Assembly: GCF_002909255.1 (NCBI RefSeq)
Contig: NZ_PIOB01000003.1
Coordinates: forward strand, 62,001 to 126,000
From: Arenibacter hampyeongensis
Lineage (GTDB): Bacteria > Bacteroidota > Bacteroidia > Flavobacteriales > Flavobacteriaceae
Direction: 5' to 3'
Length of the DNA stretch: 64,000 bases
Part shown: positions 592-56,346 of the stretch, one piece after another
Layout: each line of letters begins with the position of its first letter
Position numbering within the stretch: the stretch's first letter is position 1
Translations under genes and position numbers: made by a program
Notes under the pieces: generated by a model
Told to the model about the DNA's origin: nothing
Database searches by the model: none
What the model saw: the letters and a program-made list of their open reading frames with translations, nothing else

Positions 592-1224
592 CTATAAATC
601 CAACACTTTTATTTGATTTCTATAAAGTTTTATTTTGCCTTCGTTTTCCATTTTTTTCAATAATCGTGACACCACCACTCTCGAGGTGTGAAGGTCATAA
701 GCTATTTCTTGATGTGTGGCGTACAACAAGTCATCATTGGTAACTTTGGCCTTATCCTGCAAATGCTTCAGTAATCTTTCGTCCATTCTAAGAAAGGCAA
801 GAGTATCTATAGTCTCCATAAGCTCCATCATCCTTGCATTGTAACTGTCCAGGATAAACCGCTGCCAAGTCTTATATTTTCCCATCCAAGTTTCCATGTA
901 ACCTACAGGAATCATTAATATTTCGGTATCGGTTTCTGCTACAGCCCTTATTCCACTTTTTTTATTTCCCATGCAACAGGAAAAAGTCATGGCACAGGTG
1001 TCCCCTTTTTCAACAAAGTACAACAACAGTTCATTGCCGTCATCATCCTCCCTTAATACCTTAATAGCTCCACTTAGCAACAAGGGCATGGACTTAATGT
1101 TATCACCGATTTCCATTAGAGTTTGGCCTTGACTAACTTTTTTATAGCTACCAACTGTCCTAATTTCCTCCAACAACTCTGGTTCAAAAAGATAGCCATA
1201 ATGTAATTCCAATGCTTCTGTCAT
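592..1224 (-). CDS. Crp/Fnr family transcriptional regulator
   Basis: This 210-residue protein has the cyclic-nucleotide-binding-type beta-roll in the first half and a winged helix-turn-helix at about residues 170-198 (THQEIAYDLHTSR then VVVSRLLKKME), the usual Crp/Fnr order and length. It lacks the N-terminal cysteine cluster of E. coli FNR. Instead three cysteines (C77, C83, C84 in DTCAMTFSCCMGN) sit in the effector domain, which might sense redox state or NO; that is inference. It lies 10 bp after an aldose-epimerase-like gene and just before a cytochrome c peroxidase gene. It is the only Crp/Fnr-type regulator in the window and so the nearest candidate for the Fnr-like boxes at 42.5 and 56.3 kb. 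Confidence 0.9.
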   Translation of the reverse strand: MTEALELHYGYLFEPELLEEIRTVGSYKKVSQGQTLMEIGDNIKSMPLLLSGAIKVLREDDDGNELLLYFVEKGDTCAMTFSCCMGNKKSGIRAVAETDTEILMIPVGYMETWMGKYKTWQRFILDSYNARMMELMETIDTLAFLRMDERLLKHLQDKAKVTNDDLLYATHQEIAYDLHTSRVVVSRLLKKMENEGKIKLYRNQIKVLDL

Positions 1225-38795: not shown

Positions 38796-39659
38796 CTAGA
38801 ATTCCAATTCAAAGTACAGCGAACTGGCTTCGTTTTCAACGGTAACATCTTCGCCTTTCAACACCACTCCAGTGTCATTCAGCAACTTCAGATTAAGCTT
38901 CCAATACCCTGTCATGGTCAATGACAATTTTCCATTGTAACTTTTAGCATTGCTATCATAGGTCAAATCCACGTTGTTAGGGGAACTGTGGTTACCCATA
39001 CTAGGCATACGTGGATCAAGTGTTACGGAATAATTTTCCACAATGGGAAAACTCATCATATTTTCCATTTTAAATAACATTGCCCGTATATCGTTAATCG
39101 CCACTTGTGGGTCTGTGGGTTCAACCATGGCCAAGACATACCTTATATCATCACTTCCCATAAAGGAGGTCACCTTTTGTTTACCATCGCTGGGAGCTGC
39201 AACATCTATGGTTTCCGTCAAAGAATATTCTTGCCCCTCCACCGTATAAGTAAAAGTTATGTCCCAAAATTCATCCGCGTTTCCTGGCATTTGAAATATG
39301 ATGTATCCTTTGGCAACCGTGTTATGTTCCTCTGTAACGGCTAGGTCGGATTTAGGACAGGAATGATTCATACTCGACATATGCATAACGGGCAACCATG
39401 TTATTTGAGGATTGGCAAAGTAGCTTTCATCTGCATTGTTTTTTATACGTACGAAGATCTCATTATACCCGGTAGTAAAACCATTATTCCCTTCGGAATA
39501 TAGCTCCAAACTGTGCCCATTGGCAGCGATGCTTGCAAGTAAATTAAATTCTGCCATTGGATTTTCATCCATTTTTGGGGTATCGTCCCCATCTGATGTA
39601 CAAGAACCTAATACCAATGCTACAATGAATGTTACTATAAATGATTTAATTGTTTTCAT
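38796..39659 (-). CDS. Met/His-rich lipoprotein, FixH/YtkA-like, probable copper-related
   Basis: The 287-residue protein has an SPII signal (FIVALVLGSC, Cys near residue 20) and two similar immunoglobulin-like halves. The first carries WLPVMHMSSMNHSCP near residue 88, the second DPRMPSMGNHSSPNN near 215. Such Met/His clusters are typical copper(I) ligands, and the second resembles YtkA/FixH-type domains. It is the last gene after an OprC-type TonB receptor (17-bp gap), so a role in handling imported copper in the periplasm is a reasonable inference. No direct functional data are known to me. Confidence 0.7.
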   Translation of the reverse strand: MKTIKSFIVTFIVALVLGSCTSDGDDTPKMDENPMAEFNLLASIAANGHSLELYSEGNNGFTTGYNEIFVRIKNNADESYFANPQITWLPVMHMSSMNHSCPKSDLAVTEEHNTVAKGYIIFQMPGNADEFWDITFTYTVEGQEYSLTETIDVAAPSDGKQKVTSFMGSDDIRYVLAMVEPTDPQVAINDIRAMLFKMENMMSFPIVENYSVTLDPRMPSMGNHSSPNNVDLTYDSNAKSYNGKLSLTMTGYWKLNLKLLNDTGVVLKGEDVTVENEASSLYFELEF

Positions 39660-39676: not shown

Positions 39677-41698
39677 TTAATTTATTGAATAAGAAAGTGT
39701 TAAAAAGAAATTTCTTCCCATGCGCGGAATGTTCTTCCAATCGGTGTAAGTGGAGTAATTTTCATCAAAAATATTCTCTACCCCGAATTTCGCATACATT
39801 GAATCGTTATTAAAATTAAATGTCTTCCCAAAGGTCAAGGAACAAACGGTATACGCCTGAGTCAGGTCTTCCCCAAAATCTGGATTATAGTTGACTTGTT
39901 TTGCTGCTCCGGTTATCCTTAAACCGGCAGAAAATGATCTGCCGTTATATTGAAGACCTGATCGATATGAAAATGGACTTATAAATGGAATATTTTCCTG
40001 ATTATTGTCGGTACCTCGATGATAGGAAATTAATCCAGTCCATTTCAATTCTGGCAGAACTGCGTATTCCATATCCAATGAAGTGTTGAACAAATTGGCG
40101 TACTCCAAATTTTTATAAATCTTGACTCCATCCGCACCAATAGTCATTACACTAAGTGAAGGATCAACCTCTCCAATGATGTAATCTTTAATGTGAAAAT
40201 AATTAGCCTCCGCAGTCAACTTAAATTTGGATTTCTCCCAAGAAATCTTGGCATTGGCCTCCATTGATTTTTCGTTGACAAGTCCGGGATCCCCAATATA
40301 ATCGTGGTTATCAAAACTATTGAACAAATAAAACCCATATCCCTCGGTAACGGAAGGCGCCCTATCCCCATAAGATAGTCCGGCATTGAAATGCCATGGC
40401 ATCCACATTTTATGCCATTGCCCAGAAATACTTTTCAGGAAACGGGTTTTGGATTTTTCCATCTCCGGATAAAAAATTCTTAGACTGTTCAATCCGAATT
40501 CGTCCGCCACATTCTGATTCTGCACGGCCATTCTGGTCGCTATTTTTAAAAAGCTTCCATTTAAATTGAGCTCATCCTCTACATACACCCCGGCATTGGT
40601 GGTACGTACATCTGGCCAAGTAAGCATAAACATGGGCAACTCGTTGGGGTCGTTGGGATACATGGTCATTTCTGCCAATGACTTATTGTAATAACCATCC
40701 ACTTTGAACAAAAATTGATGTTTTTTCAGCCTTAAGAAGGCTTGCGAGAAGAATCCATAAGTATCGCTCCAACCGGGCATATCCATATGAATAGGTACAT
40801 CGGGCCTTTTAGTATCGTCCATTACATGAGTAACCTTATTAAAATACAACTTGGATTTCCAATCCCTTAAACTGCCCCATAAATCATCCTGTTCAAAACC
40901 AACGGATGCAATGATAGCCCTGGCCAATGAAACATCCATTGTTAATGCCGGATAACCTACATCCCTGGCCTCATCAAAAATAATACTCGCTGTTAGTGCC
41001 CGATCTTCGGCGATTTTATAACCACCGTTGGCTGAAACATTATATTTTTCAAATTGGGAAAACTGAACTTCCTCATCACCTCCTGCAAAATAGTTTTCTG
41101 CCTTGCGATAAATAATATCGGTATCCACATAGAAGTTGGAATCTGAATAATTAAGCTCGGCACCAACAATACTCATCTGGTTGTTGCTTTCGAAACCGGT
41201 CTCCAAACCGCCGTAAAATCCAGTCTCCTTAAAATTGCCCCTATCCAACTCCAAATCAATGGCGCCACCAATGGTGGTTCCGTGCTCGGCGCCTTGCTGG
41301 CCAGAAGCTATATGGGCTTTTGACAAATTGGACACATCCACATAAGATGTTATGGGATCCATCTTGTCCGTACAGGCACCAAAAATCCTCATCCCATCTA
41401 TAGTAACCGAAAGTCGTTCCGAGAACATATTGTTCAAAGTAGGTTCCCAAGCATAGGCACCCCGTTTCACCATATCCACTTTTTTTGACGATTCCAAATA
41501 TTCGTCCAAGGTTGATAAGGGTTTTGGCTGGCGATGGTAATCCAAAGCCTTTCTTGCCGATATCAGGATAACTTCGTCCAAATTGATCGTAATAATCGAA
41601 TCCCTTTGTAAAATTAATTCCTGAGCGCCAATGTAAATAGGAAATAGAAATATCCCTAACAAAAGCACCCGCCAAGATATTGGTTTGCTCGTTGCCAT
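39677..41698 (-). CDS. OprC/NosA-like TonB-dependent copper receptor
   Basis: Start chosen at ATG 41698 (MATSKPISWRVLLLGIFLF, signal peptide ending IGAQ); a longer frame begins at GTG 41740. The 673-residue protein has a plug (LDEVILIS, GAYAWEPTLNNMFSERLSV, IDGMRIFGACTDKMDPITSY) and a beta-barrel ending in the aromatic-type C-terminus FFLTLSYSIN. The GACTDKMDP element reproduces the CxxxM copper site (C109, M113 here) known from Pseudomonas OprC, and further Met-rich loops occur (MDMPGW, MTMYPNDPNELPMFML). NosA/OprC supplies copper for N2O reductase, and a nos cluster lies 6 kb away. Confidence 0.85.
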   Translation of the reverse strand: MATSKPISWRVLLLGIFLFPIYIGAQELILQRDSIITINLDEVILISARKALDYHRQPKPLSTLDEYLESSKKVDMVKRGAYAWEPTLNNMFSERLSVTIDGMRIFGACTDKMDPITSYVDVSNLSKAHIASGQQGAEHGTTIGGAIDLELDRGNFKETGFYGGLETGFESNNQMSIVGAELNYSDSNFYVDTDIIYRKAENYFAGGDEEVQFSQFEKYNVSANGGYKIAEDRALTASIIFDEARDVGYPALTMDVSLARAIIASVGFEQDDLWGSLRDWKSKLYFNKVTHVMDDTKRPDVPIHMDMPGWSDTYGFFSQAFLRLKKHQFLFKVDGYYNKSLAEMTMYPNDPNELPMFMLTWPDVRTTNAGVYVEDELNLNGSFLKIATRMAVQNQNVADEFGLNSLRIFYPEMEKSKTRFLKSISGQWHKMWMPWHFNAGLSYGDRAPSVTEGYGFYLFNSFDNHDYIGDPGLVNEKSMEANAKISWEKSKFKLTAEANYFHIKDYIIGEVDPSLSVMTIGADGVKIYKNLEYANLFNTSLDMEYAVLPELKWTGLISYHRGTDNNQENIPFISPFSYRSGLQYNGRSFSAGLRITGAAKQVNYNPDFGEDLTQAYTVCSLTFGKTFNFNNDSMYAKFGVENIFDENYSTYTDWKNIPRMGRNFFLTLSYSIN

Positions 41699-41886
41699 AA
41701 GTATTGTGCATACCTTATGGGCACATCTAATAATTTTCACACCTTTAAGTTTAAGTTAATTGTCTAAAAAAAAGAATTGTAGAATTAAGAAGAGGTGCAA
41801 GCACTATGCTCTCACATTAAAAATTTAATTAATCTATTTGAGAATAAATTTTTAAAATCCCTTAACGACAGTTTTCTGATTTTTTA

Positions 41887-41970
41887 GATAATACAATTGC
41901 TTTAGAAGCCATAATAGTGACAAGGGAATTACAATAATTCCCAAACTACCATGGCGATAATTGTATTATC
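41887..41970 (-). other. Nested inverted repeats between the small Cys protein gene and the TonB receptor gene
   Basis: GATAATACAATT (41887-41898) and AATTGTATTATC (41959-41970) form a perfect 12-bp outer stem enclosing a second hairpin, GGGAATT (41924-41930) with AATTCCC (41936-41942). The outer right arm covers the stop codon of the 124-residue gene. There is no T run, so it looks like an RNA structure in the operon leader or spacer rather than a simple terminator. Confidence 0.6.
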
Positions 41971-42340
41971 CCAGCTCGGGAGGCTGTGCAATATCTGTAG
42001 TATATAAGCCAGTAATTAGAATCTGGGTACTTTTATAGTTATTCTGAATGCTATTTCGGTATTCATTTCCAGTTCCTAAGACCGTCAATGGCTCGAATGA
42101 AGAGATAAACTGGATTTCCAAGTTGAATCGTTTGCCTTCAAACGGATTTTTATCACTCCCTTCAGATTCTTTTGCCAACTGTTTTGCCAAATAACATTTA
42201 CCATCACAATGTAAAGAGGGAGTATCCCTATTTTCACAAAGATTCTCCACTATATAGGTATAATTTACAGCATACTCAGCTAAGGGCCACAAGGGCTTTA
42301 TCAGCATGATCAAGGCAACAAAGAGTATAACTTGCTTCAT
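41966..42340 (-). CDS. Small Cys-containing exported protein (CDGKCYL motif)
   Basis: A 124-residue protein with an N-terminal hydrophobic segment (VILFVALIMLIKPLWPLAEY), then LCENRDTP and HCDGKCYLAKQL near residues 44-55, and a short C-terminal TDIAQPPELG tail. The same layout is seen in small Bacteroidota proteins next to TonB receptors; function unknown, metal binding by the Cys/His cluster is plausible. It is the first gene of the presumed copper-uptake operon and is preceded by an Fnr-like box. Confidence 0.75.
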   Translation of the reverse strand: MKQVILFVALIMLIKPLWPLAEYAVNYTYIVENLCENRDTPSLHCDGKCYLAKQLAKESEGSDKNPFEGKRFNLEIQFISSFEPLTVLGTGNEYRNSIQNNYKSTQILITGLYTTDIAQPPELG

Positions 42341-42439
42341 TATTTATTTTTAAACTTCTAAATTACAACTGTTATCTGGCCGTAATTTTTTAGGAACGCA
42401 GGATCGAATGATATAGGGCCTGCTTTTTATAATCCTGAA

Positions 42440-42447
42440 CAAAGATA
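42440..42447 (-). promoter_or_regulatory. -7 promoter box of the copper-uptake operon
   Basis: On the minus strand the sequence reads TATCTTTG, an exact TAnnTTTG match, 100 bp before the start codon at 42340. The Fnr-like box centre is 30.5 bp upstream of its first base. Confidence 0.6.
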
Positions 42448-42470: not shown

Positions 42471-42484
42471 ATGACAATTATCAT
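42471..42484. promoter_or_regulatory. Fnr-like box upstream of the copper-uptake operon
   Basis: ATGACAATTATCAT is a near palindrome (arms ATGAC/ATCAT, 4-bp spacer) close to the Crp/Fnr pattern TTGAT-N4-ATCAA. With transcription starting about 6 bp after the -7 box it would be centred near -43, a class II activator position. The same layout occurs at the nos promoter (56333-56346). Confidence 0.5.
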
Positions 42485-42617: not shown

Positions 42618-43052
42618 ATGTTTTCCAAAGCCTGCGAATACGGAATAAAAGCCACTATATATATAGCCGTCAAGTCTATGCACCAAGAACGTGTAAGCCT
42701 TAAAGAGATTGCGGAAGAAGTGAATTCCCCAGTGGCATTTACAGCTAAAATATTACAGTTGTTGGCCAAAAGTGGCATTATTGATTCCCATAAGGGTCCA
42801 ACAGGAGGGTTTCAGATCGATGAATCCAGAATAGATAACATTAAATTACACGATATTGTACATGCCATTGACGGCGATAATATTTTTAATGGCTGCGGTC
42901 TGGGACTAAAACAATGCGATGCCAGTCAGCCTTGTCCGGTTCATCATAAATTTGTAGTGATTAGGGACAATCTAAAGATAATGCTGCAGAATACCAGCTT
43001 GTACGAATTGGCTATAGGCTTGGATATTGGTCTAACCCATTTGAAAAGATAA
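42618..43052 (+). CDS. Rrf2 family regulator, NsrR-like
   Basis: The 144-residue protein has the Rrf2 winged HTH (ACEYGIKATIYIAV, VSLKEIAEEVNSPVAFTAKILQ, GPTGGFQI) and three cysteines at 93, 100 and 106 (NGCGLGLKQC then QPCPVHH). These match the positions that bind the NO-sensitive Fe-S cluster in NsrR (and the related cluster of IscR). It heads a run of genes for NO and Fe-S damage response, so NO sensing is the likely role. It is divergent from the copper-uptake operon. Confidence 0.85.
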   Translation: MFSKACEYGIKATIYIAVKSMHQERVSLKEIAEEVNSPVAFTAKILQLLAKSGIIDSHKGPTGGFQIDESRIDNIKLHDIVHAIDGDNIFNGCGLGLKQCDASQPCPVHHKFVVIRDNLKIMLQNTSLYELAIGLDIGLTHLKR

Positions 43053-44754: not shown

Positions 44755-45480
44755 ATGGAAAATTTAATGACCAAAAACATTGGGGAAATAGTAGCTGAAA
44801 ACTATCGCACAGCGCAAATATTCAAAAACCATAAAATAGATTTTTGCTGCAAGGGAAACAGAAGCATCGTAGAGGTGGCCGAAAAAAATAAGCTGGATGC
44901 CAATCTTCTGTTACAGGAAATTGAAACAGTACAGCATCAAACAGGCGATAACAATATCGATTTTAAAACTTGGCCATTGGACCTACTGGCAGATTACATT
45001 GAGAAAAAACATCATCGCTACGTGGAGGCACAGATACCAATTTTAAATCAATATCTGGCCAAATTATGCCGTGTTCATGGAGATAGACATCCTGAATTAT
45101 TCGAAATCACCGAACATTTCAACAAAAGTGCTGGAGAACTGGCCATGCATATGAAAAAAGAGGAACTGATTGTTTTCCCTGCCGTACGCAAAATGATACA
45201 GAGCAAACACTATGGCAATCCATTGGACGAGCAACATTTTGGCACCATCCAAAATCCAATACAAATGATGATGCAAGAGCATGAAAACGAAGGGGACCGT
45301 TTTAGGATTATTGATGAATTAAGCAATAACTACAATCCACCTGCCGATGCCTGCAACACATACCGTGTAACATTTTCACTGCTACAGGAATTCGAGGAGG
45401 ATCTGCATAGACATATACATTTGGAAAATAACATTCTCTTCCCAAAAGCCATAGCCTTGGAAAAAGAATTAAACCAATAA
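44755..45480 (+). CDS. ric: Iron-sulfur cluster repair di-iron protein (Ric/ScdA/YtfE)
   Basis: A 241-residue protein with the N-terminal ScdA domain (IGEIVAENYRTAQIF, HKIDFCCKGNRS with C31-C32) and a hemerythrin-like di-iron domain (KKHHRYVEAQIP, HGDRHPELFEI, HMKKEELIVFPAV, MQEHENEGDRF, LHRHIHLENNILFP). Ric repairs Fe-S clusters damaged by NO or peroxide. It follows the cupin by 5 bp. Confidence 0.95.
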   Translation: MENLMTKNIGEIVAENYRTAQIFKNHKIDFCCKGNRSIVEVAEKNKLDANLLLQEIETVQHQTGDNNIDFKTWPLDLLADYIEKKHHRYVEAQIPILNQYLAKLCRVHGDRHPELFEITEHFNKSAGELAMHMKKEELIVFPAVRKMIQSKHYGNPLDEQHFGTIQNPIQMMMQEHENEGDRFRIIDELSNNYNPPADACNTYRVTFSLLQEFEEDLHRHIHLENNILFPKAIALEKELNQ

Positions 45481-45669
45481 ATCTAGTCCTCCACTAATAA
45501 AATGCTTGAGGAAATATTCAGGAAAACCAATCCGGCACGGTTAATGACTTTACCATTGAGTCCCCCCAACCGAACCGTATTGGTCCCTGTTTTCCCAATC
45601 ATCCATCAAAGATCATTATTAAGAAAATGCCCAACAAGATAAATAGACGATAACTTAAAAACAGTGACT

Positions 45670-46131
45670 ATGAAAACCAAACCTATTAAAAGACACCAGG
45701 CCCTGCAACCCTTGAGCAGGGACCATCATCAAGGTTTACTATTATCTTGGAAAATTAGGACTGGTTTTGCCAAAGGCATATCTGTAGATCGCATAAAGAA
45801 CTACACCGACTGGTTTTACAAAAACCATTTAACACCACATTTCAAGGAAGAGGAAAAATACATCTTTCCCATTTTGGGAAATGATAATGAATTGGTAAAA
45901 AAGGCCATTGCACAGCACAGAAGGCTGGAGCGCCTATTCAGTAGTCCTTTGGAATTAAAAAAGTCTCTAAGTAGAATAGAGGAAGAATTGGAACAGCATA
46001 TCCGATTTGAGGAAAGGGTGCTTTTTAATGAAATCCAGAAAGTAGCCACAGAACAGCAGTTACAATTTATTTTGGAACATCATTCAGAAACCAAATTTTT
46101 GGATAATACCACGGATAATTTTTGGGAATAA
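45670..46131 (+). CDS. Hemerythrin domain protein
   Basis: Start chosen at ATG 45670 (MKTKPIKRHQALQPLSRDHHQG) rather than GTG 45664. The 153-residue protein has hemerythrin ligands: LSRDHHQGLLLSW, HFKEEEKYIFP near residue 57, AQHRRLERLF near 80 and LEQHIRFEERVLFNEI near 105. It probably binds a di-iron site for O2 or NO sensing or scavenging. A 189-bp gap separates it from ric; I saw no clear promoter there. Confidence 0.88.
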   Translation: MKTKPIKRHQALQPLSRDHHQGLLLSWKIRTGFAKGISVDRIKNYTDWFYKNHLTPHFKEEEKYIFPILGNDNELVKKAIAQHRRLERLFSSPLELKKSLSRIEEELEQHIRFEERVLFNEIQKVATEQQLQFILEHHSETKFLDNTTDNFWE

Positions 46132-48710: not shown

Positions 48711-49493
48711 TTAAAAATCCTTTCTTTTAGCCACGTAACTCAACCGCCAAACGGGGATTATAGTCCATAGCAGCAGCATACAAATAGACATGACCAGCCC
48801 AAAATTGGTGCCGAAAAACTGCTTAAAAATAGCTCCGGTATACCCCAATAGAGCGGAAATATCCAATTTTAACAATATTAGGGTTCTGGATAGATCTATA
48901 GGATTGAACATAGTGGCTACCAAAGAAAAACTATCCAAGGGATATTCCTCAAAAACGATCAATGACATTAAAAAGAGTCCGTCATAGATAACGGCCAAAA
49001 ACAGCCAGGCCAATACGGCATACCCAAAACCCTTTATCCTATTTTCATTGGACAGGGCAATGTTGAAAGCAACTGCAGTAAAGATCAAGGTTAAAAAGGC
49101 TCCAGTAATCAACAATAGTGAAAAATCCCAAATGGCATTACTTTCAAACAATCCATACAAGGCAAAGGGGATTCCCAAACCTAGAACCAAGCTCATAGTA
49201 AGCGAACCTGCCACTCCAAAATACTGACCCAAAAATATGGAAGATCTTTTAATGGGCTGTGCCAAAAGAAGCTCAGTGAATTCCTTGGAGTTGTAATAGT
49301 ACATTACCCCAAATATGGTCCCTATCAAAGGTACCAGTACTATAATTACATTCATTAAGGTAATAACTGCCTTGGACAGCTCGTTGTTTAAAAATAACAA
49401 TACGAACCCCAATAACAGATAGAACAGGAAATAAACATAACTCCATCTGCTGCGCATTAGGTCGTAAAAACTGTATTTTAATATCTTAATCAT
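48711..49493 (-). CDS. nosY: NosY-type ABC transporter permease
   Basis: Start chosen at ATG 49493 (MIKILKYSFYDLMRSRWSYVY), giving 260 residues, the usual NosY length; the 35 extra residues of the longer frame lie in nosF. There are about six transmembrane helices, with FGVMYYYNSKEFTELLLAQPIKRS near residue 70 (EFTELLLAQPI is typical of NosY). With NosF and NosD it supports maturation of the copper-sulfide site of N2O reductase. Overlaps nosF by 8 bp. Confidence 0.88.
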   Translation of the reverse strand: MIKILKYSFYDLMRSRWSYVYFLFYLLLGFVLLFLNNELSKAVITLMNVIIVLVPLIGTIFGVMYYYNSKEFTELLLAQPIKRSSIFLGQYFGVAGSLTMSLVLGLGIPFALYGLFESNAIWDFSLLLITGAFLTLIFTAVAFNIALSNENRIKGFGYAVLAWLFLAVIYDGLFLMSLIVFEEYPLDSFSLVATMFNPIDLSRTLILLKLDISALLGYTGAIFKQFFGTNFGLVMSICMLLLWTIIPVWRLSYVAKRKDF

Positions 49494-50196
49494 TCTTGTT
49501 GTGAGTTGATATTGCCGCGATGGCATGTTCAAAATTAGTTTGTCCTGTTTTGGTCTTAAGCTCGGCAATACTTCCCTTAAAGTAAATTTCACCCTCAAGA
49601 AGGTAAACTATCTCATCGGAAACTTCTTCTACGAACTGCATAATATGGGAGGTAATCAAAAAGGTTTTTCCTTGGGCCTTTTCCTCGGAAATAAGTTCCT
49701 TTAGTCGAATCATGGACAAGGGATCCAGACCATTTGTAGGTTCGTCCAAAATAATCAAAGGACTATCGAACATAAAGGTGAGTACTATATTCACCTTTTG
49801 TTTGGTACCACCGGAAAGGTTGCTCAATTTTTTATCCAAAAAAGGCTCCAATCCAAATAGGCTGATAAGCTTTTTCTCATCACTGGGTTTTTGCCTTATG
49901 TCCTTTATCATTGCTATTAATTCCTTGACCTTTAAGTTTCCGGGAAAATTAGCTATTTGGGGGAGATAATTTATATCCTGACGATACCTCCACTTATTTT
50001 TTATCTTTAAATCCATCACAGAAATAGTCCCCTTATTGGGAATCACCATTCCTAGGATTGTTTTTATCAGGGTTGTTTTACCTGAGCCATTGGGCCCAAG
50101 GATAGCAAAAATACCCCCTTGATCGATATCGAGTTCCAATCCGGCCAGTACTTCATTTTTGCCGAATTTCTTATGTAAGCTTTCAACGTGTATCAT
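49486..50196 (-). CDS. nosF: NosF-type ABC transporter ATPase
   Basis: A 236-residue ATPase: Walker A GPNGSGKTTLI near residue 35, signature LSGGTKQK near 127, Walker B LIILDEPTNGLDP near 146, switch His in LITSHIMQ near 180. Its position between nosD (4-bp ATGA overlap) and nosY identifies it as NosF, which powers NosDFY. Confidence 0.93.
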   Translation of the reverse strand: MIHVESLHKKFGKNEVLAGLELDIDQGGIFAILGPNGSGKTTLIKTILGMVIPNKGTISVMDLKIKNKWRYRQDINYLPQIANFPGNLKVKELIAMIKDIRQKPSDEKKLISLFGLEPFLDKKLSNLSGGTKQKVNIVLTFMFDSPLIILDEPTNGLDPLSMIRLKELISEEKAQGKTFLITSHIMQFVEEVSDEIVYLLEGEIYFKGSIAELKTKTGQTNFEHAIAAISTHNKND

Positions 50197-51431
50197 TTGA
50201 TCTTTTTCATTAACGGTTTTGCATCAACCAACGCATCCGGTGTAAATACAGGGGATACTTTTTCCGAAAAATCGATAATATCCATAAATAAACTGCGCAA
50301 CAGTATAATGGTCTCTGGTGTTCTGTTTACGATATAGGAAAATAATTTTACGGGTCTGTAGGGAACATCGCCCATGCCGTTCCTGTCCAAATCGTAGCCT
50401 GTGTAGTTGCTCCAATAGTTTTCTTCAAATATATTATCGTTCAAATTACTATTGTAGGCAAGATCGAAGGAGTTGTACATAAAATTATTGTGGATAAAGG
50501 TATTGGCATAACAGGCCCCACGTACTTTAATGGCCCAACCATTTTTTATAAAGTTATTTTTAGAATAATTTATCCTGTTGGACCCCTCAATACTGATACC
50601 TATCGTATTCTCTTCAAATGTATTGCCAGTAATTTCGGCATCATTTATCTCCTTCAACAACACTCCAAATGAGGCGGTACCCCAATTTTTTTTAAAGGTA
50701 TTGCCCAACATTTTTATTCTTTTGGAAAACATGACCGCAACTCCTGCCCCATTGTTCTCAAAGGTATTGTTCTTATAGATGTCATCATTGGAAAACATAA
50801 AATGCAACCCATAACGAAGATTGTTGGAACTGATATTGTTTTCAATTATTATGTTGTCCGAAAACTCCAAATAAATACCATCCCGTACATGCTGCACTAT
50901 ATTTCTTTCCACAACAATGTTTTGGGAATACCATAATTGTATGCCATTGCCAGAATTATATTCATCCACGGCATCTCCAATAATCTTATTGTTGTATACC
51001 TTTCCATTCTTACACTTTTCCAGATAAATACCGAAAAACAACTTTTCAAGCACCACATTCTGTATCAGAAAATCTTCGCTCTTTACTACCCTTATGGCGG
51101 CATAATCTGCCGTGTAACTGGTTCCGACGTTAATAATAAACAATCCGTCTATGGTAACATTATTTGAAACTATAGTTATGATTTCCCCCTGATCTTCCCC
51201 GTCAACTACAGGATAGTTTTCCCCTATAATGGTCAAGGGTTTGTTTACCTGAATATTATATTCCTTATATGTCCCTTTTTTAATTAATAGGGTATCAAAA
51301 TCAGCGGCCACAGCTATGCCTTCCCTAATAGTTTTCACCTCGCAGGAATTGCAGACTGTAATTGTTCCTGCCCATAAATGATTCCCAAAGAATAGCCATA
51401 ATAAACCTACAAAGACACTAATTTTTCCCAT
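50193..51431 (-). CDS. nosD: Copper/sulfur-maturation protein NosD
   Basis: The 412-residue periplasmic protein has a signal peptide (ISVFVGLLWLFFGNHLWAG) and a right-handed beta-helix of repeated Asn/Ile rungs (e.g. DNIIIENNISSNNLRYGLHF, GNTFKKNWG, GNTFEENTIGISIEGSN). The C-terminal NosD segment ENYWSNYTGYDLDRNGMGDVPYRP is present. It is needed to build the CuZ site of NosZ. It overlaps nosF by 4 bp and the upstream cupin by 1 bp. Confidence 0.94.
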   Translation of the reverse strand: MGKISVFVGLLWLFFGNHLWAGTITVCNSCEVKTIREGIAVAADFDTLLIKKGTYKEYNIQVNKPLTIIGENYPVVDGEDQGEIITIVSNNVTIDGLFIINVGTSYTADYAAIRVVKSEDFLIQNVVLEKLFFGIYLEKCKNGKVYNNKIIGDAVDEYNSGNGIQLWYSQNIVVERNIVQHVRDGIYLEFSDNIIIENNISSNNLRYGLHFMFSNDDIYKNNTFENNGAGVAVMFSKRIKMLGNTFKKNWGTASFGVLLKEINDAEITGNTFEENTIGISIEGSNRINYSKNNFIKNGWAIKVRGACYANTFIHNNFMYNSFDLAYNSNLNDNIFEENYWSNYTGYDLDRNGMGDVPYRPVKLFSYIVNRTPETIILLRSLFMDIIDFSEKVSPVFTPDALVDAKPLMKKIK

Positions 51432-51724
51432 TATCTAATGATCAAAAATTTGGAGTTTTCTTCGGCAGACACCCAATGTGGAACTTCTTTGGGGAAACTA
51501 AAGTGTTGTTGTTCTTTAATGGGATAGGATTTACCATTGATATGAAACATAATTTCACCTTCCAAAACAATCAATTGCGCATCGGTTGGAGCAATATGTT
51601 CCGGAAAAATAGCCCCTTTTTCCAAACTGATGTTCAAAATTTCCAAAACCTCAGTTTTCACCAATTTATTTACCTGGAGCTTATTGTATTCTTGGTTTTT
51701 GATCTGATTATTAATGGCGTACAT
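51431..51724 (-). CDS. Small cupin of the nos operon
   Basis: A 97-residue cupin: GAIFPEHIAPTDAQLIVLEGEIMFHING near residue 36 and HFSFPKEVPHWVSA near 73. It has His ligands of both motifs. It is fused tightly to nosD (1-bp overlap of stop and start). Its role in nos expression or maturation is not known to me. Confidence 0.82.
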   Translation of the reverse strand: MYAINNQIKNQEYNKLQVNKLVKTEVLEILNISLEKGAIFPEHIAPTDAQLIVLEGEIMFHINGKSYPIKEQQHFSFPKEVPHWVSAEENSKFLIIR

Positions 51725-51852
51725 AGTTATTGTATTGTTTTAATGAATAATTTCTTAAATTTTTATAAGCATGAAGGGCGGAATAATGCAACATTTGCAT
51801 TACAGTTATCAATTGCCCTAAGTTTGATACCTATAAGACATTTAATTACTTA

Positions 51853-52287
51853 CTATAACTGAAATCTTAGTTTTAATTGTTCCCACGTCAATAAGTCTCC
51901 CTCATAGGTCATAAGGGCATCCACAGCGGCCTTTTCTGTCTTAAAAGCCGTTAAAAATTCGCCCATAGGGCTTGGAATACGAACACTTATAAGATAAGTT
52001 GCCATTGTGGCATCAATTAACTCCCCGGGTTGATCGAAGTCGTTTACCAAATAAAGGGCAATTTGCTTCTGGTCTATATCCTTGATATGATTCATCATAC
52101 ATTCACTTGCATCGAACTTAAAGACTTTACCTTTATCCGTAACTATTTCAGCTGCATGTTGCCTATCTACTATGGTCATACTACAGAAGTGACAGCCATC
52201 AGATCCATAAGCTATAGGTTGGGGACCAATTCTACAGGAAGTTGCAAATAATAAGAATAATAACATAACTATTCTGTAGTTAACCAT
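51853..52287 (-). CDS. nosL: Copper chaperone lipoprotein NosL
   Basis: Start chosen at ATG 52287 (MVNYRIVMLLFLLFATSC), which gives an SPII lipoprotein signal; the longer frame overlaps the upstream gene. The 144-residue product has the NosL copper motif GCHFCSMTI near residue 30 and FDASECMMNHI near 60. NosL delivers Cu(I) to apo-NosZ in the periplasm. 17 bp separate it from the upstream membrane protein gene. Confidence 0.92.
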   Translation of the reverse strand: MVNYRIVMLLFLLFATSCRIGPQPIAYGSDGCHFCSMTIVDRQHAAEIVTDKGKVFKFDASECMMNHIKDIDQKQIALYLVNDFDQPGELIDATMATYLISVRIPSPMGEFLTAFKTEKAAVDALMTYEGDLLTWEQLKLRFQL

Positions 52288-52304
52288 ATCTTTATTTTTT
52301 AAAA

Positions 52305-52949
52305 TTATGCGGCCACTGCCTCTTTTGACCCCTGTTTTTCTTCTGACTTCTTGCTCTTCCAACCTAAATATGACGCTACCACAGTAAGAGTCATTCCAAC
52401 AAACATCATGTAACCACCAGTGCTCGGAAGTGAAGTTACATCAAAATTCAACATTTTCTGATTCCCGAACAAAGGCGGCTTATAAGTCATGGGCGTCCCA
52501 TCCTCATTAACCACTTTTATAATGGCGTGGGGATCTAAATTTGAGCCATAGTCCGTTAACCATACATTAAAATCATACATGCCTAAGATTCCTAAAATGG
52601 ACATAAGTAGAAACCAGCCCAAAAACCATCTGTAGCCTACTTTTCCAAAAAAACCCAATAACCCTATAAGTACTCCGAGGCCTACCATTCCGATAATAAC
52701 CATAGGAAATATATTAAACTCCCACATTTCTCCAGGTTTGGGTATGGTCTTCATACCTATATAGTGATTGAGTCCGTCTATATTCTGCAAATCAAATTCA
52801 GAGACACCCTGAATTCCCGTGATATGTATATTCATGCCCAAGGGCTCTGGATACTGTGGTGCGCCCAACATGATGTTCCATAAAGGAAAGGCAAACAAAC
52901 CCAATAAAAACAATGGGCCAATGATCATTAATAAACTTGCTTTTTTCAT
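52305..52949 (-). CDS. nos-cluster membrane protein, unknown function
   Basis: A 214-residue protein with four hydrophobic helices (about residues 5-25, 79-104, 107-127, 183-202). An extracytoplasmic loop contains GLNHYIGMKTIPKPGEMWEFN and another DGTPMTYKPPLFGNQK. The helical-loop His/Met residues could bind copper or heme. It lies between nosZ and nosL, a position often filled by such a protein in Bacteroidota nos operons. A terminator separates it from nosZ, so it may have reduced read-through expression or its own promoter. Confidence 0.8.
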   Translation of the reverse strand: MKKASLLMIIGPLFLLGLFAFPLWNIMLGAPQYPEPLGMNIHITGIQGVSEFDLQNIDGLNHYIGMKTIPKPGEMWEFNIFPMVIIGMVGLGVLIGLLGFFGKVGYRWFLGWFLLMSILGILGMYDFNVWLTDYGSNLDPHAIIKVVNEDGTPMTYKPPLFGNQKMLNFDVTSLPSTGGYMMFVGMTLTVVASYLGWKSKKSEEKQGSKEAVAA

Positions 52950-53081: not shown

Positions 53082-55043
53082 CTAATCGCCTAGGGACCAT
53101 GAAAGTTCTATATTGGAACTTGCTGGTGAAACCCTAACATAACCTTGCATCTCTTGGTGGAGTGCCGAACAGAAATCGGTACAGTAAAACGGCCATACCC
53201 CAACTTGCTTAGGCTCCCAAATTATTGTCTTGGTCTGCCCGGGCATAACCAACAATTCTGAGGTATTTGCTCCTATCACAGCAAAACCGTGTGGTACATC
53301 AAAATCCTGCTCTTGATTCGTTATATGAAAATAAACCTTATCACCTACCTTGACACCTTCAATGTTATCGGGGGTAAAATGGCTTCGGATCGTAGACATA
53401 TAAATATGAACATCCTTACCTTCACGGACCACTTTGGCATCAGCTGCACCTAAAGTAGCGTACGGGTGTTTGTTATCTGCGAGTTTATAAAACTTTTTCG
53501 ATTTAGGAGCCAACAGTTCAGCTGGGATACCTGCCGCATAATGTGGTTCACCATGAGTGGGAAAATCATAAATAAGCTCCATTTTACCCCCTGATATATC
53601 ATATAATTGGGCAGAATGCTCCAATTCTGGACCAGTAGGCAAATACCGGTCCTTGGTAATCTTGTTCATAGCTACCACGTATTTACCAAATGGTTTTCTG
53701 GAGTTACCACCGGGAATCATCAAGTGTCCAACGGAATAGTAGGTAGGTTTTCTATCGATAACTTCCCATGTGCCTAGTTTCCACATAACCACCTCCGATG
53801 AAATAAAGAAGGTAGTATAGGCATTACCCTCACCGTCAAACTCTGTATGTAATGGTCCAAGACCACCGCTTTTTACGGTTCCCGCTAGGACGTCCTCAAA
53901 TTTTAGGATAGGAATACCATAGGCCTCTCCATCAAATTTCTTACCCTCAATGGCTGCTATCATCTTATCAAAAGAGTGTACCGTTAAATCAGCGGACAAT
54001 TTTCCATTTCCAATAATATATTCTCCAGAAGGATCAACATCACAACCATGAGGTGATTTTGGGGTTGGTAAGAAAAACACTGCTCCCGGGATTTTAGTTG
54101 GGTCAACTGTTAAAACTTCCTTTACCATGGTAGAAGTGGCCGTGTGTGTTTCATCACTGTACACATTATGCGCATAATTTGCTGGCATTTTTGTTCCACC
54201 ACCATTGTTTACATACTCCTCAATTTTTTTCCAGTTGATAGCTGCAATAAAATCCTTATCATTTTGAGAGGCATTAACTTCCAATAAGGTATTGGCCTCC
54301 TCAGTGTTGTAGGTAGTAAAGAAGAACCATCCGTGAGATTTCCCCCTACCTGGATGTGAAAGGTCATAATTGAAACCTGGCATCAGTATTTGAAACTTAA
54401 TATCCATTCGACCATCTTCTGGATCTACACTAATAAAAGAAAGTGCTCCCTTAAAATTACCCTTGTAATCCTTAATGGGCATATCGGCCTGTGGAACAGG
54501 TACCGAAAAACGGGTTCCTGCAACAACATACTCCGTATTTTCCGTAATGAAGGAAGAACTGTGGTTACCTGCACTGTTGGGAACCTCTATAATCTCGGCG
54601 GTCTCAAAAGTTTGAAGGTCAATTCTTGCTATACGAGGTGTATTGTTACCGTTTATAAAAATCCATCTTCCATCCAATTCGCCATTGGTTTGGCTAATGT
54701 CCGGGTGGTGTGAATCATCCCATGGAACAAAACCGAAGGAGGTATTCAACATAGGTTTGGTCTCTTCGGAATAACCGTAGCCAGAGGTGGGAAATTGTGA
54801 GAATACCGGAATTTCCTTGAACATTCTTCCAGATGGTAAACCGTAAACTGTTAGATTGCCACTATATCCTCCAGACATAAAAGCGTAAAATTCATCATGT
54901 TCCCCGGGAGCCACATACACTTTTTCTGCATTACTCGAGTTTAATGCTCCGGAAGAACCTTTACCTTGGTTACCATTACCGCAACTCGTCAATAATGCGG
55001 CAAAGCCCAAGAGTCCCAAAACTAAATAAGTATTTCTTTTCAT
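53082..55043 (-). CDS. nosZ: Nitrous oxide reductase, clade II (Sec-dependent)
   Basis: A 653-residue protein with a Sec/SPII-type signal (GFAALLTSC, Cys21) instead of a Tat signal, the mark of clade II NosZ. The propeller part holds SHPGRGKSHGWFF, MPANYAHNVYSDE and SPHGCDVDPSGEYIIGNGK, whose histidines belong to the CuZ site. The C-terminal cupredoxin has the CuA motif with C621, C625, H629 and M632 (WPFYCTDFCSALHQEM). It reduces N2O to N2 in the periplasm. No nosR is present, as usual for clade II. Confidence 0.97.
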   Translation of the reverse strand: MKRNTYLVLGLLGFAALLTSCGNGNQGKGSSGALNSSNAEKVYVAPGEHDEFYAFMSGGYSGNLTVYGLPSGRMFKEIPVFSQFPTSGYGYSEETKPMLNTSFGFVPWDDSHHPDISQTNGELDGRWIFINGNNTPRIARIDLQTFETAEIIEVPNSAGNHSSSFITENTEYVVAGTRFSVPVPQADMPIKDYKGNFKGALSFISVDPEDGRMDIKFQILMPGFNYDLSHPGRGKSHGWFFFTTYNTEEANTLLEVNASQNDKDFIAAINWKKIEEYVNNGGGTKMPANYAHNVYSDETHTATSTMVKEVLTVDPTKIPGAVFFLPTPKSPHGCDVDPSGEYIIGNGKLSADLTVHSFDKMIAAIEGKKFDGEAYGIPILKFEDVLAGTVKSGGLGPLHTEFDGEGNAYTTFFISSEVVMWKLGTWEVIDRKPTYYSVGHLMIPGGNSRKPFGKYVVAMNKITKDRYLPTGPELEHSAQLYDISGGKMELIYDFPTHGEPHYAAGIPAELLAPKSKKFYKLADNKHPYATLGAADAKVVREGKDVHIYMSTIRSHFTPDNIEGVKVGDKVYFHITNQEQDFDVPHGFAVIGANTSELLVMPGQTKTIIWEPKQVGVWPFYCTDFCSALHQEMQGYVRVSPASSNIELSWSLGD

Positions 55044-55077: not shown

Positions 55078-55659
55078 TTATTCCGAAGGAGGCAACATTA
55101 CCTTATCTACAACATGTACAATTCCATTGCCCGCAGGGATACTGGCAATAATTTTTGCACCACCAACAAAAACATCCTCACCCTTTACTTCAACGGTAGT
55201 GTTCTGATCATTGGCCTGTCCCAATTTTTTAAACTTCATTAAAAAATCCTTGCTGTAATTACCTGCAGTAACATGAAACTTTAAAATATTTGCCAAAGCA
55301 TCTTTGTTCTCCGGTTTTAACAGATCTTCCACAGTGCCTGCCGGTAGAGCGGCAAAAGCCTCATTGGTTGGAGCAAACACCATTAAGGGTCCTGCATTCA
55401 CCAATGCGTTTTCCAATTGCGCAGCCTGTACCGCTGCCACCAATGTGGTATGGTCTGGAGATCCAATGGCTATTTGCAATACATTGGGGGTAGAGCCATC
55501 ATCAGCAATAAAGGCTTGACCCTGCTTTTCCGTTGCTTCCGTACCAACATTGTTGGAATTTGGAGTCGTAGCCGTCTTTGATTCATTTTTACAACTGAAC
55601 GTAAGGACCAGAATAAAAAATGACATCATCAGTAATTTTATGTAATTAGTTGATATCAT
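55078..55659 (-). CDS. Fasciclin-domain lipoprotein
   Basis: A 193-residue protein with an SPII signal (FFILVLTFSC, Cys23) and one FAS1 domain from about residue 70: TTLVAAVQAAQLENAL, PLMVFAPTNEAFAALP, VEDLLKPENKDALANILKFHV, GIVHVVDKVMLPP. FAS1 domains mediate adhesion or protein contacts. It is encoded between the cytochrome c and nosZ genes (34 and 18 bp gaps), so it is part of the nos transcript; its role there is unknown. Confidence 0.9.
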   Translation of the reverse strand: MISTNYIKLLMMSFFILVLTFSCKNESKTATTPNSNNVGTEATEKQGQAFIADDGSTPNVLQIAIGSPDHTTLVAAVQAAQLENALVNAGPLMVFAPTNEAFAALPAGTVEDLLKPENKDALANILKFHVTAGNYSKDFLMKFKKLGQANDQNTTVEVKGEDVFVGGAKIIASIPAGNGIVHVVDKVMLPPSE

Positions 55660-56184: not shown

Positions 56185-56302
56185 TTGCTTGTCATTTAAT
56201 TGTTATAGGTCACTTGTTTATTAATTATTCGTAATATTCTCATCGGTTTCATTAAAATGGTCTATTCACTAATTGTTTATCGGTTTTATGAATTTATTTG
56301 GA

Positions 56303-56310
56303 CAAAATTA
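56303..56310 (-). promoter_or_regulatory. -7 promoter box of the nos operon
   Basis: On the minus strand it reads TAATTTTG, an exact TAnnTTTG match, 118 bp before the cytochrome c start codon. No TTG is at the usual -33 distance, which fits an activator-dependent promoter. Confidence 0.55.
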
Positions 56311-56332
56311 GGTCGCCATTGAAACAAAAAAC

Positions 56333-56346
56333 ATGATATAAATCAT
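56333..56346. promoter_or_regulatory. Fnr-like box upstream of the nos operon
   Basis: ATGATATAAATCAT has perfect inverted arms (ATGAT/ATCAT) with a 4-bp spacer, like the Fnr consensus with changed outer bases. Its centre is 29.5 bp upstream of the -7 box, or about -42 from the expected transcription start. The same geometry is seen before the copper-uptake operon. The rest of the gap to 56799 holds no other feature I can name, only AT-rich sequence. Confidence 0.55.

Follow-up and report, generated by a model that had tools for sequence, protein, structure and literature searches.

The genes for N2O destruction and for predicted copper import in Arenibacter hampyeongensis carry the same putative switch, an ATGAY-N4-RTCAT palindrome, at nearly the same promoter position. 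This arrangement recurs across many relatives and points to a low-oxygen regulon. As a sequence-based prediction, control of N2O reductase and copper import by a common Crp/Fnr-type box is well supported by the computed boxes, spacing, conservation, gene content and co-occurrence.

The window, i.e. the whole stretch of 64,000 nucleotides that was analysed, comes from a genome of 5.43 Mb. It contains a clade II nos cluster on the minus strand (56184 to 48711) in the order cytochrome c, fasciclin protein, NosZ, a protein without a family hit, NosL, NosD, NosF and NosY. NosZ is 96% identical to the NosZ of several Arenibacter species. Among 17 clusters from relatives, the fasciclin-domain gene adjoins nosZ in 13 and the gene order from 48711 to 52949 is kept in all 17. 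A copper operon encoding a small cysteine protein, a TonB receptor and a lipoprotein-like protein lies on the same strand (42340 to 38796). The features discussed below are as follows.

56333..56346, minus strand: nos box ATGATTTATATCAT, putative site of an Fnr-type activator, predicted centre at -41.5, 29 bp from TAnnTTTG
56303..56310, minus strand: -7 box of the nos promoter, TAATTTTG (TAnnTTTG consensus and -12 to -5 position as excerpted from PMC9723704)
55678..56184, minus strand: cytochrome c gene, first of the nos cluster (PF00034)
55078..55659, minus strand: fasciclin-domain protein of the nos cluster (PF02469)
53082..55043, minus strand: nosZ, nitrous oxide reductase of the Sec-dependent type (clade II; TIGR04246 at 948 bits, cut-off 625)
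48711..52949, minus strand: downstream nos genes NosL1, nosL, nosD, nosF and nosY (PF05573, PF05048 and PF00005, hits listed jointly for the nosL/nosD/nosF stretch)
52305..52949, minus strand: NosL1 (a working label), no family hit
51853..52362, minus strand: nosL
42618..43052, plus strand: Rrf2-family regulator, divergent from the copper operon (PF02082)
42471..42484, minus strand: predicted copper-operon box ATGATAATTGTCAT, centred at -42.5, 30 bp from its -7 box
42440..42447, minus strand: -7 box of the copper operon, TATCTTTG (TAnnTTTG)
41966..42340, minus strand: leading gene of the copper operon, encoding a small C-x9-C-x3-C protein, recurring upstream of the receptor
39677..41740, minus strand: TonB-dependent copper receptor, OprC/NosA-like (TIGR01778, 133 bits)
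38796..39659, minus strand: lipoprotein-like protein, accompanying the receptor in relatives, no family hit
592..1224, minus strand: Crp/Fnr-family protein (profile match), judged not to be the regulator of the box
C24:271949-272632: Fnr-like protein (PF00027 and PF13545)

NosY was assigned from its position in the cluster, as Pfam gives no hit. Transcription is predicted to start near 56298 for nos and near 42435 for the copper operon. At 44755-46131, in the interval that separates the copper operon from nos and downstream of the Rrf2 gene, lie the genes of a possible nitric-oxide response group: a ScdA/RIC-type di-iron repair protein and a second hemerythrin-domain protein.

The nos and copper boxes are the only two ATGAYN4RTCAT sites in the window. 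Both had been noticed in a sequence-only reading, and re-reading the letters confirmed their places and distances, with 29 bases from palindrome centre to -7 box at nos and 30 at the copper promoter. The flavobacterial -7 box TAnnTTTG is placed at -12 to -5 in the excerpted text of PMC9723704; the box centres would then fall at -41.5 and -42.5, counted from the predicted starts.

Across the genome, ATGAYN4RTCAT occurs at 54 sites, against 24 for the reversed pattern, which was discounted as a control because of its stop triplet and its bias in coding DNA. The spacing histogram was therefore used to estimate chance. The pattern TGAYN4RTCA-N{8,38}-TAnnTTTG has 39 matches genome-wide (7 for the reversed control), 19 of which share a single spacing of 29 bp, while the other 20 are spread over the remaining 30 of 31 spacings. 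With a background of 0.67 matches per spacing, the Poisson probability of the 29-bp peak is about 2e-21, so the spacing at nos is far beyond chance, and the random scatter that the sequence-only reading had named as fatal to a shared switch was not seen. A looser scan (TGAN6TCA with 22 to 24 bases) returned 27 matches against 7 in the control, 21 of them at 29 bp. We re-examined 27 ATGAYN4RTCAT sites for a -7 box at 28, 29 or 30 bp, tolerating one mismatch: 20 had such a box, always at 29 bp, and the remaining seven had none. Chance is expected to supply between about 0.7 (histogram) and 2.3 (looser-scan control) matches per spacing, and some of the 19 to 21 box-promoters of this genome will be chance matches.

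The same spacing is found at nos loci of other organisms. We surveyed the best 80 of 491 named nosZ loci within 2.6 kb upstream of nosZ. The palindrome is present in 79 of these 80 and lies exactly 29 bp from a -7 box in 74 (65 distinct promoters), the only spacing found between 20 and 37. Together with the spacing peak, this led us to reject a chance palindrome at nos. The first base of the half-site is A in 99% of the 74 nos promoters, and 63% A and 32% C in the 19 promoters of the A. hampyeongensis genome. In five relatives (L245, L251, L253, L254 and L257), another box with the exact spacing lies roughly 2.4 to 2.9 kb further upstream than the nos box. Across 199 genomes of the family, 1670 box-promoters have the exact spacing, compared with 176 for the control. 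Outside the family the architecture was found as well. We scanned 148 further genomes of the class that passed a 90% completeness filter (three belong to the same family and one to the same order); the strict pattern stood at the exact spacing 520 times, with 12 control matches (hand count) and none of the pattern in 27 genomes.

The sequence-only reading had proposed a genome search for the motif upstream of TAnnTTTG; among the genes that follow are nirK-, hemN- and fnr-like genes and those of stress proteins. Strict boxes precede a multicopper-oxidase/cytochrome c fusion on C2, read as NirK; a HemN-like radical SAM protein (HemN_C just under the cut-off) and the fnr gene, both on C24; and, on C27, universal stress proteins (one of them scanned), a patatin, a PAS kinase/receiver-Crp regulator and a DnaJ-type protein. 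Others precede a DeoC-family aldolase and a pyridine nucleotide-disulphide oxidoreductase (both on C1) and a sulfate-permease family protein (C4). A norC-like gene is preceded by a palindrome whose -7 box has one departure. At C22:448694-450030 (L288:8695-10031), a strict box stands ahead of the genes for a small protein containing cysteine and for an AraC-type regulator that has a CxxC close to the N-terminus. The region C27:94000-134000 (L103, L104) is an island with a high density of these boxes; it encodes numerous universal-stress-like proteins, PAS histidine kinases and two receiver-cNMP-HTH_Crp hybrids. One of its palindromes (C27:127111) has a -7 box at 29 bp on each strand.

Five proteins of the A. 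hampyeongensis genome score over the HTH_Crp_2 cut-off. Three of them, the Fnr-like protein on C24 and the two receiver-Crp hybrids on C27, have a T-E-x-x-I-R recognition helix that keeps the equivalents of E181 and R185; the helices of the window protein (592-1224) and of a C23 protein lack the glutamate. The half-site contacts given in the excerpt of PMC1274295 are R180 with G3 and E181 (of CRP) with A6. The three proteins keep the glutamate and lack the arginine, which fits a TGA without a preceding G two bases before it. The C24 and C27 proteins fit better as regulators than the 592-1224 protein.

The C24 Fnr-like protein combines a cNMP-type fold with a Crp helix-turn-helix, PF00027 and PF13545 both being over cut-off. 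Its best match among solved structures is 2gau, a Crp/Fnr protein with an unstated signal, ahead of FNR, whose chains match at E about 1e-21. Cysteines 4, 7, 53 and 106 are present in all 30 aligned sequences (the best 30 of 125 matches). The CxxC aligns with that of FNR and C106 falls on the distal FNR cysteine; the third N-terminal cysteine of FNR is absent, and cysteine 53 is extra in each of the best 30 matches. The protein would probably sense oxygen through an Fe-S cluster. At 29 bp, a strict box precedes fnr in 11 of the best 30 loci (the own genome and ten others), and for the other 19 genes none was found in the 400 bp searched. The fnr gene is divergent from a heavy-metal P-type ATPase gene, with hemN-like and cbb3-type oxidase genes within 20 kb.

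The number of box-promoters follows the presence of these proteins. An Fnr orthologue was counted in 119 of 125 matching genomes (best hit of 142 bits or more) and a hybrid in 86 of 93 (partial-only matches dropped). Among the 199 family genomes, which are related and unequal in size, so that counts and tests are not independent and kinship and size confound the comparison, those with both regulator types average 14.2 box-promoters (control 0.9), those with Fnr only 7.8 (1.1), those with a hybrid only 9.7 (0.9) and those with neither 1.7 (0.4); all 87 genomes with nosZ over cut-off have an Fnr or a hybrid, against 69 of the 112 others (Fisher P 2.5e-13). There are exceptions in both directions. 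Three of the 43 genomes with neither regulator still carry five or more box-promoters, among them G048 (82% complete), with 10 box-promoters and sub-threshold fragments of nosZ. Of the 70 Fnr-only genomes, 11 have fewer than four, with G100 and G144 below their own control.

The 87 nosZ-bearing genomes comprise 35 with both types, 28 with Fnr and no hybrid, and 24 with a hybrid and no Fnr orthologue. The last group implies that the box can persist without Fnr, and also favours a reading in which the receiver-Crp hybrids with their PAS kinases act alone here, Fnr having other targets or being secondary. The box-dense C27 island, which includes the promoter of a PAS kinase/hybrid pair, is consistent with this. 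We nevertheless consider it improbable, given the 28 genomes that have Fnr without any hybrid and the strict box before fnr itself in 11 of the best 30 loci.

The sequence-only reading had proposed that one regulator, perhaps the Crp/Fnr protein at 592-1224, co-induces nos and copper import. Conservation upholds the shared box, and the proposed protein fared badly as its regulator. It belongs to the right family, is encoded in the same window and has homologues in 167 of the 199 family genomes, but its recognition helix reads S-R-V-V-V-S-R, without an equivalent of E181, and the number of boxes does not follow its presence. In genomes without Fnr or hybrids, there are 1.8 boxes per genome where a 592-1224 homologue is present (n=20) and 1.65 where it is absent (n=23). 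The homologue is missing from four of the 87 nosZ-bearing genomes (G066, G088, G136 and G141, three of them 80-87% complete), and the two of these that were inspected (G088 and G141) keep the nos box. We rejected this protein and give it very little credence as the regulator.

It is just as doubtful that the box belongs to an Rrf2/NsrR-type repressor. The Rrf2 gene at 42618-43052 is divergent from the copper operon, and Rrf2 homologues adjoin the nos promoter in five of 17 clusters (L248, L250, L256, L257 and L260), several of them divergent from nos. However, the TGA-N6-TCA geometry is of Crp/Fnr type, the rigid position at -41.5 suits an activator and not a repressor sitting over the promoter, and the same box also precedes fnr, hemN-like and universal stress protein genes. 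Furthermore, a locus with both boxes (L247) has no Rrf2 homologue in the 18 kb fetched, which makes Rrf2 an unlikely regulator.

Turning to the copper promoter, its receptor is below the TIGR01778 equivalog threshold (cut-off 472) and is therefore termed OprC/NosA-like. The OprC copper ligands C123xxxM127 and H305xM307 are kept in all 45 aligned receptor homologues, own copy included (10 receptors without fetched loci were left out of the alignment). The receptor and nosZ co-occur: nosZ is present in 32 of the 40 family genomes with the receptor and in 55 of the 159 without it (P 2.5e-7, 199 family genomes). The small C-x9-C-x3-C protein has no match in Pfam or NCBIfam; it accompanies the receptor across genera and is a possible copper chaperone.

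Because the 30-bp spacing is weakly enriched in the own genome (three sites, P about 0.03), support for the copper box comes from its conservation. The receptor is present in 16 of 18 Arenibacter genomes, own genome included, and all 16 have the copper box at 30 bp (13 with a perfect TAnnTTTG and three with one departure), one base further out than other boxes. In the family as a whole, 25 of the 40 genomes with the receptor have a copper box: 16 strict at 29 bp, two at 30 (the own genome and G027), three at 28 and four at 29 bp with one departure in the -7 box. No box was found in the other 15, of which ten have the most divergent receptors (42-46% identity); the search at the copper promoter admitted no departure from the strict -7 box in G084, G094 and G153, and a guessed start was used for the small gene of G169. 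A receptor homologue lies within 10 kb of nosZ in 18 of the best 80 named loci. In all 17 assessable loci, a copper box at 29 bp stands ahead of the small gene, and in 16 of these the -7 box is perfect. One locus (L086) was left out of this count since the contig ends within its receptor and its box belongs to nos, and another (L042), with a nearby receptor of 22% identity, was counted through its small protein and the box of that protein. In several relatives the copper operon stands inside or just before the nos cluster, still with its own box. That only the nos box is real and the copper box a chance palindrome, as the weak 30-bp enrichment and the 15 receptor-bearing genomes without a box might suggest, is thus hardly credible, since the box is kept at 30 bp in every receptor-bearing Arenibacter genome and at 29 bp in other genera.

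We judge it likely that these observations reflect an Fnr-type regulon of Flavobacteriaceae in which a class II box co-induces nos and copper import at low oxygen, with the C24 Fnr as the most likely regulator. We infer its binding, activation, signal and regulator-promoter pairing as follows. ATGAY-N4-RTCAT would be the operator, bound by a Crp/Fnr dimer at -41.5 (-42.5 at the Arenibacter copper promoter). With sigma-A holding the TAnnTTTG -7 box, the dimer would contact RNA polymerase in the manner of a class II activator. Low oxygen would switch on nos, along with nirK-, norCB-, hemN-like and stress-protein genes, and at the same time the OprC/NosA-like receptor operon, so that the supply of copper would increase along with N2O reductase. 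The Fnr-like protein at C24:271949-272632, which has four invariant cysteines and a box before its own gene, is the most likely regulator; the receiver-domain Crp hybrids, two of which are on C27, probably read the same box and would replace Fnr in some relatives.

In the control of proteobacterial denitrification, FNR, ANR and DNR act from a class II site near -41.5 and have hemN among their targets, as is predicted here. The system described here would work like these and differs in half-site and cysteine set. The half-site is ATGA, against TTGA for FNR, ANR and DNR, and the FNR/DNR box TTGAT-N4-ATCAA is not matched by ATGAY-N4-RTCAT. The -7 box here is the Bacteroidota TAnnTTTG, and a copper receptor operon has its own box. 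One of the four FNR cysteines is elsewhere in the C24 Fnr, and receiver-Crp hybrids probably share the box. FixLJ-FixK comprises a PAS kinase and a Crp/Fnr-type activator. As in that system, P-type ATPase and cbb3-type oxidase genes are found near the regulator, whereas the receiver and Crp domains are here fused in one protein. In the excerpt of PMC1274295, the proteobacterial FNR, ANR and DNR are likewise Crp/Fnr-type activators with nir, nor and nos targets, and the DNR box is TTGATnnnnATCAA, with half-site TTGAT where ATGAY is found here. The same excerpt describes HcpR/HcpR2 and NnrR as members of the Crp/Fnr family that also go with nitrogen-oxide genes; their boxes differ (GTAACnnnnGTTAC, TTGACnnnnGTCAA and TTGcgnnnncgCAA), and HcpR2 occurs in Bacteroides with regulons mostly of hcp only.

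NosA of Pseudomonas stutzeri and OprC of P. aeruginosa are likewise TonB receptors with a CxxxM/HxM site and a genetic link to N2O reductase. Unlike these, the receptor here scores under the TIGR01778 cut-off, has a promoter box in common with nos and is frequently encoded within or close to the nos cluster, together with a small cysteine protein and a lipoprotein. According to the excerpted text of PMC8610252, the CxxxM/HxM copper site is the OprC motif, OprC and NosA are made anaerobically, and the role of NosA in loading N2O reductase is disputed, with conflicting results in P. stutzeri.

Among the matches listed in the open PMC literature, there is no paper on an ATGAY-N4-RTCAT box and no description of how clade II N2O reducers of Bacteroidota switch nos on. 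In the excerpt of PMC8510549, a Crp/Fnr homologue of a Flavobacteriales MAG is placed near MalR and a Bacteroides MalR matrix is used; this motif is not mentioned there.

The wider reading, to which we give about even weight for and against, is of a family-wide and possibly class-wide anaerobic regulon of Bacteroidota with its own half-site, ATGAY. An Fe-S Fnr with shifted cysteines and phosphorylation-driven receiver-Crp hybrids would converge on one box and interchange between genera, and the copper importer for N2O reductase, under a box of its own, would belong to the regulon. Clade II N2O reducers of Bacteroidota are a greenhouse-gas sink, and with the box, its position and candidate regulators defined, the switching of nos becomes directly testable. 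The link between nos and copper is relevant to the dispute over what NosA/OprC does in the loading of N2O reductase, and the box may help to predict low-oxygen genes from flavobacterial genomes.
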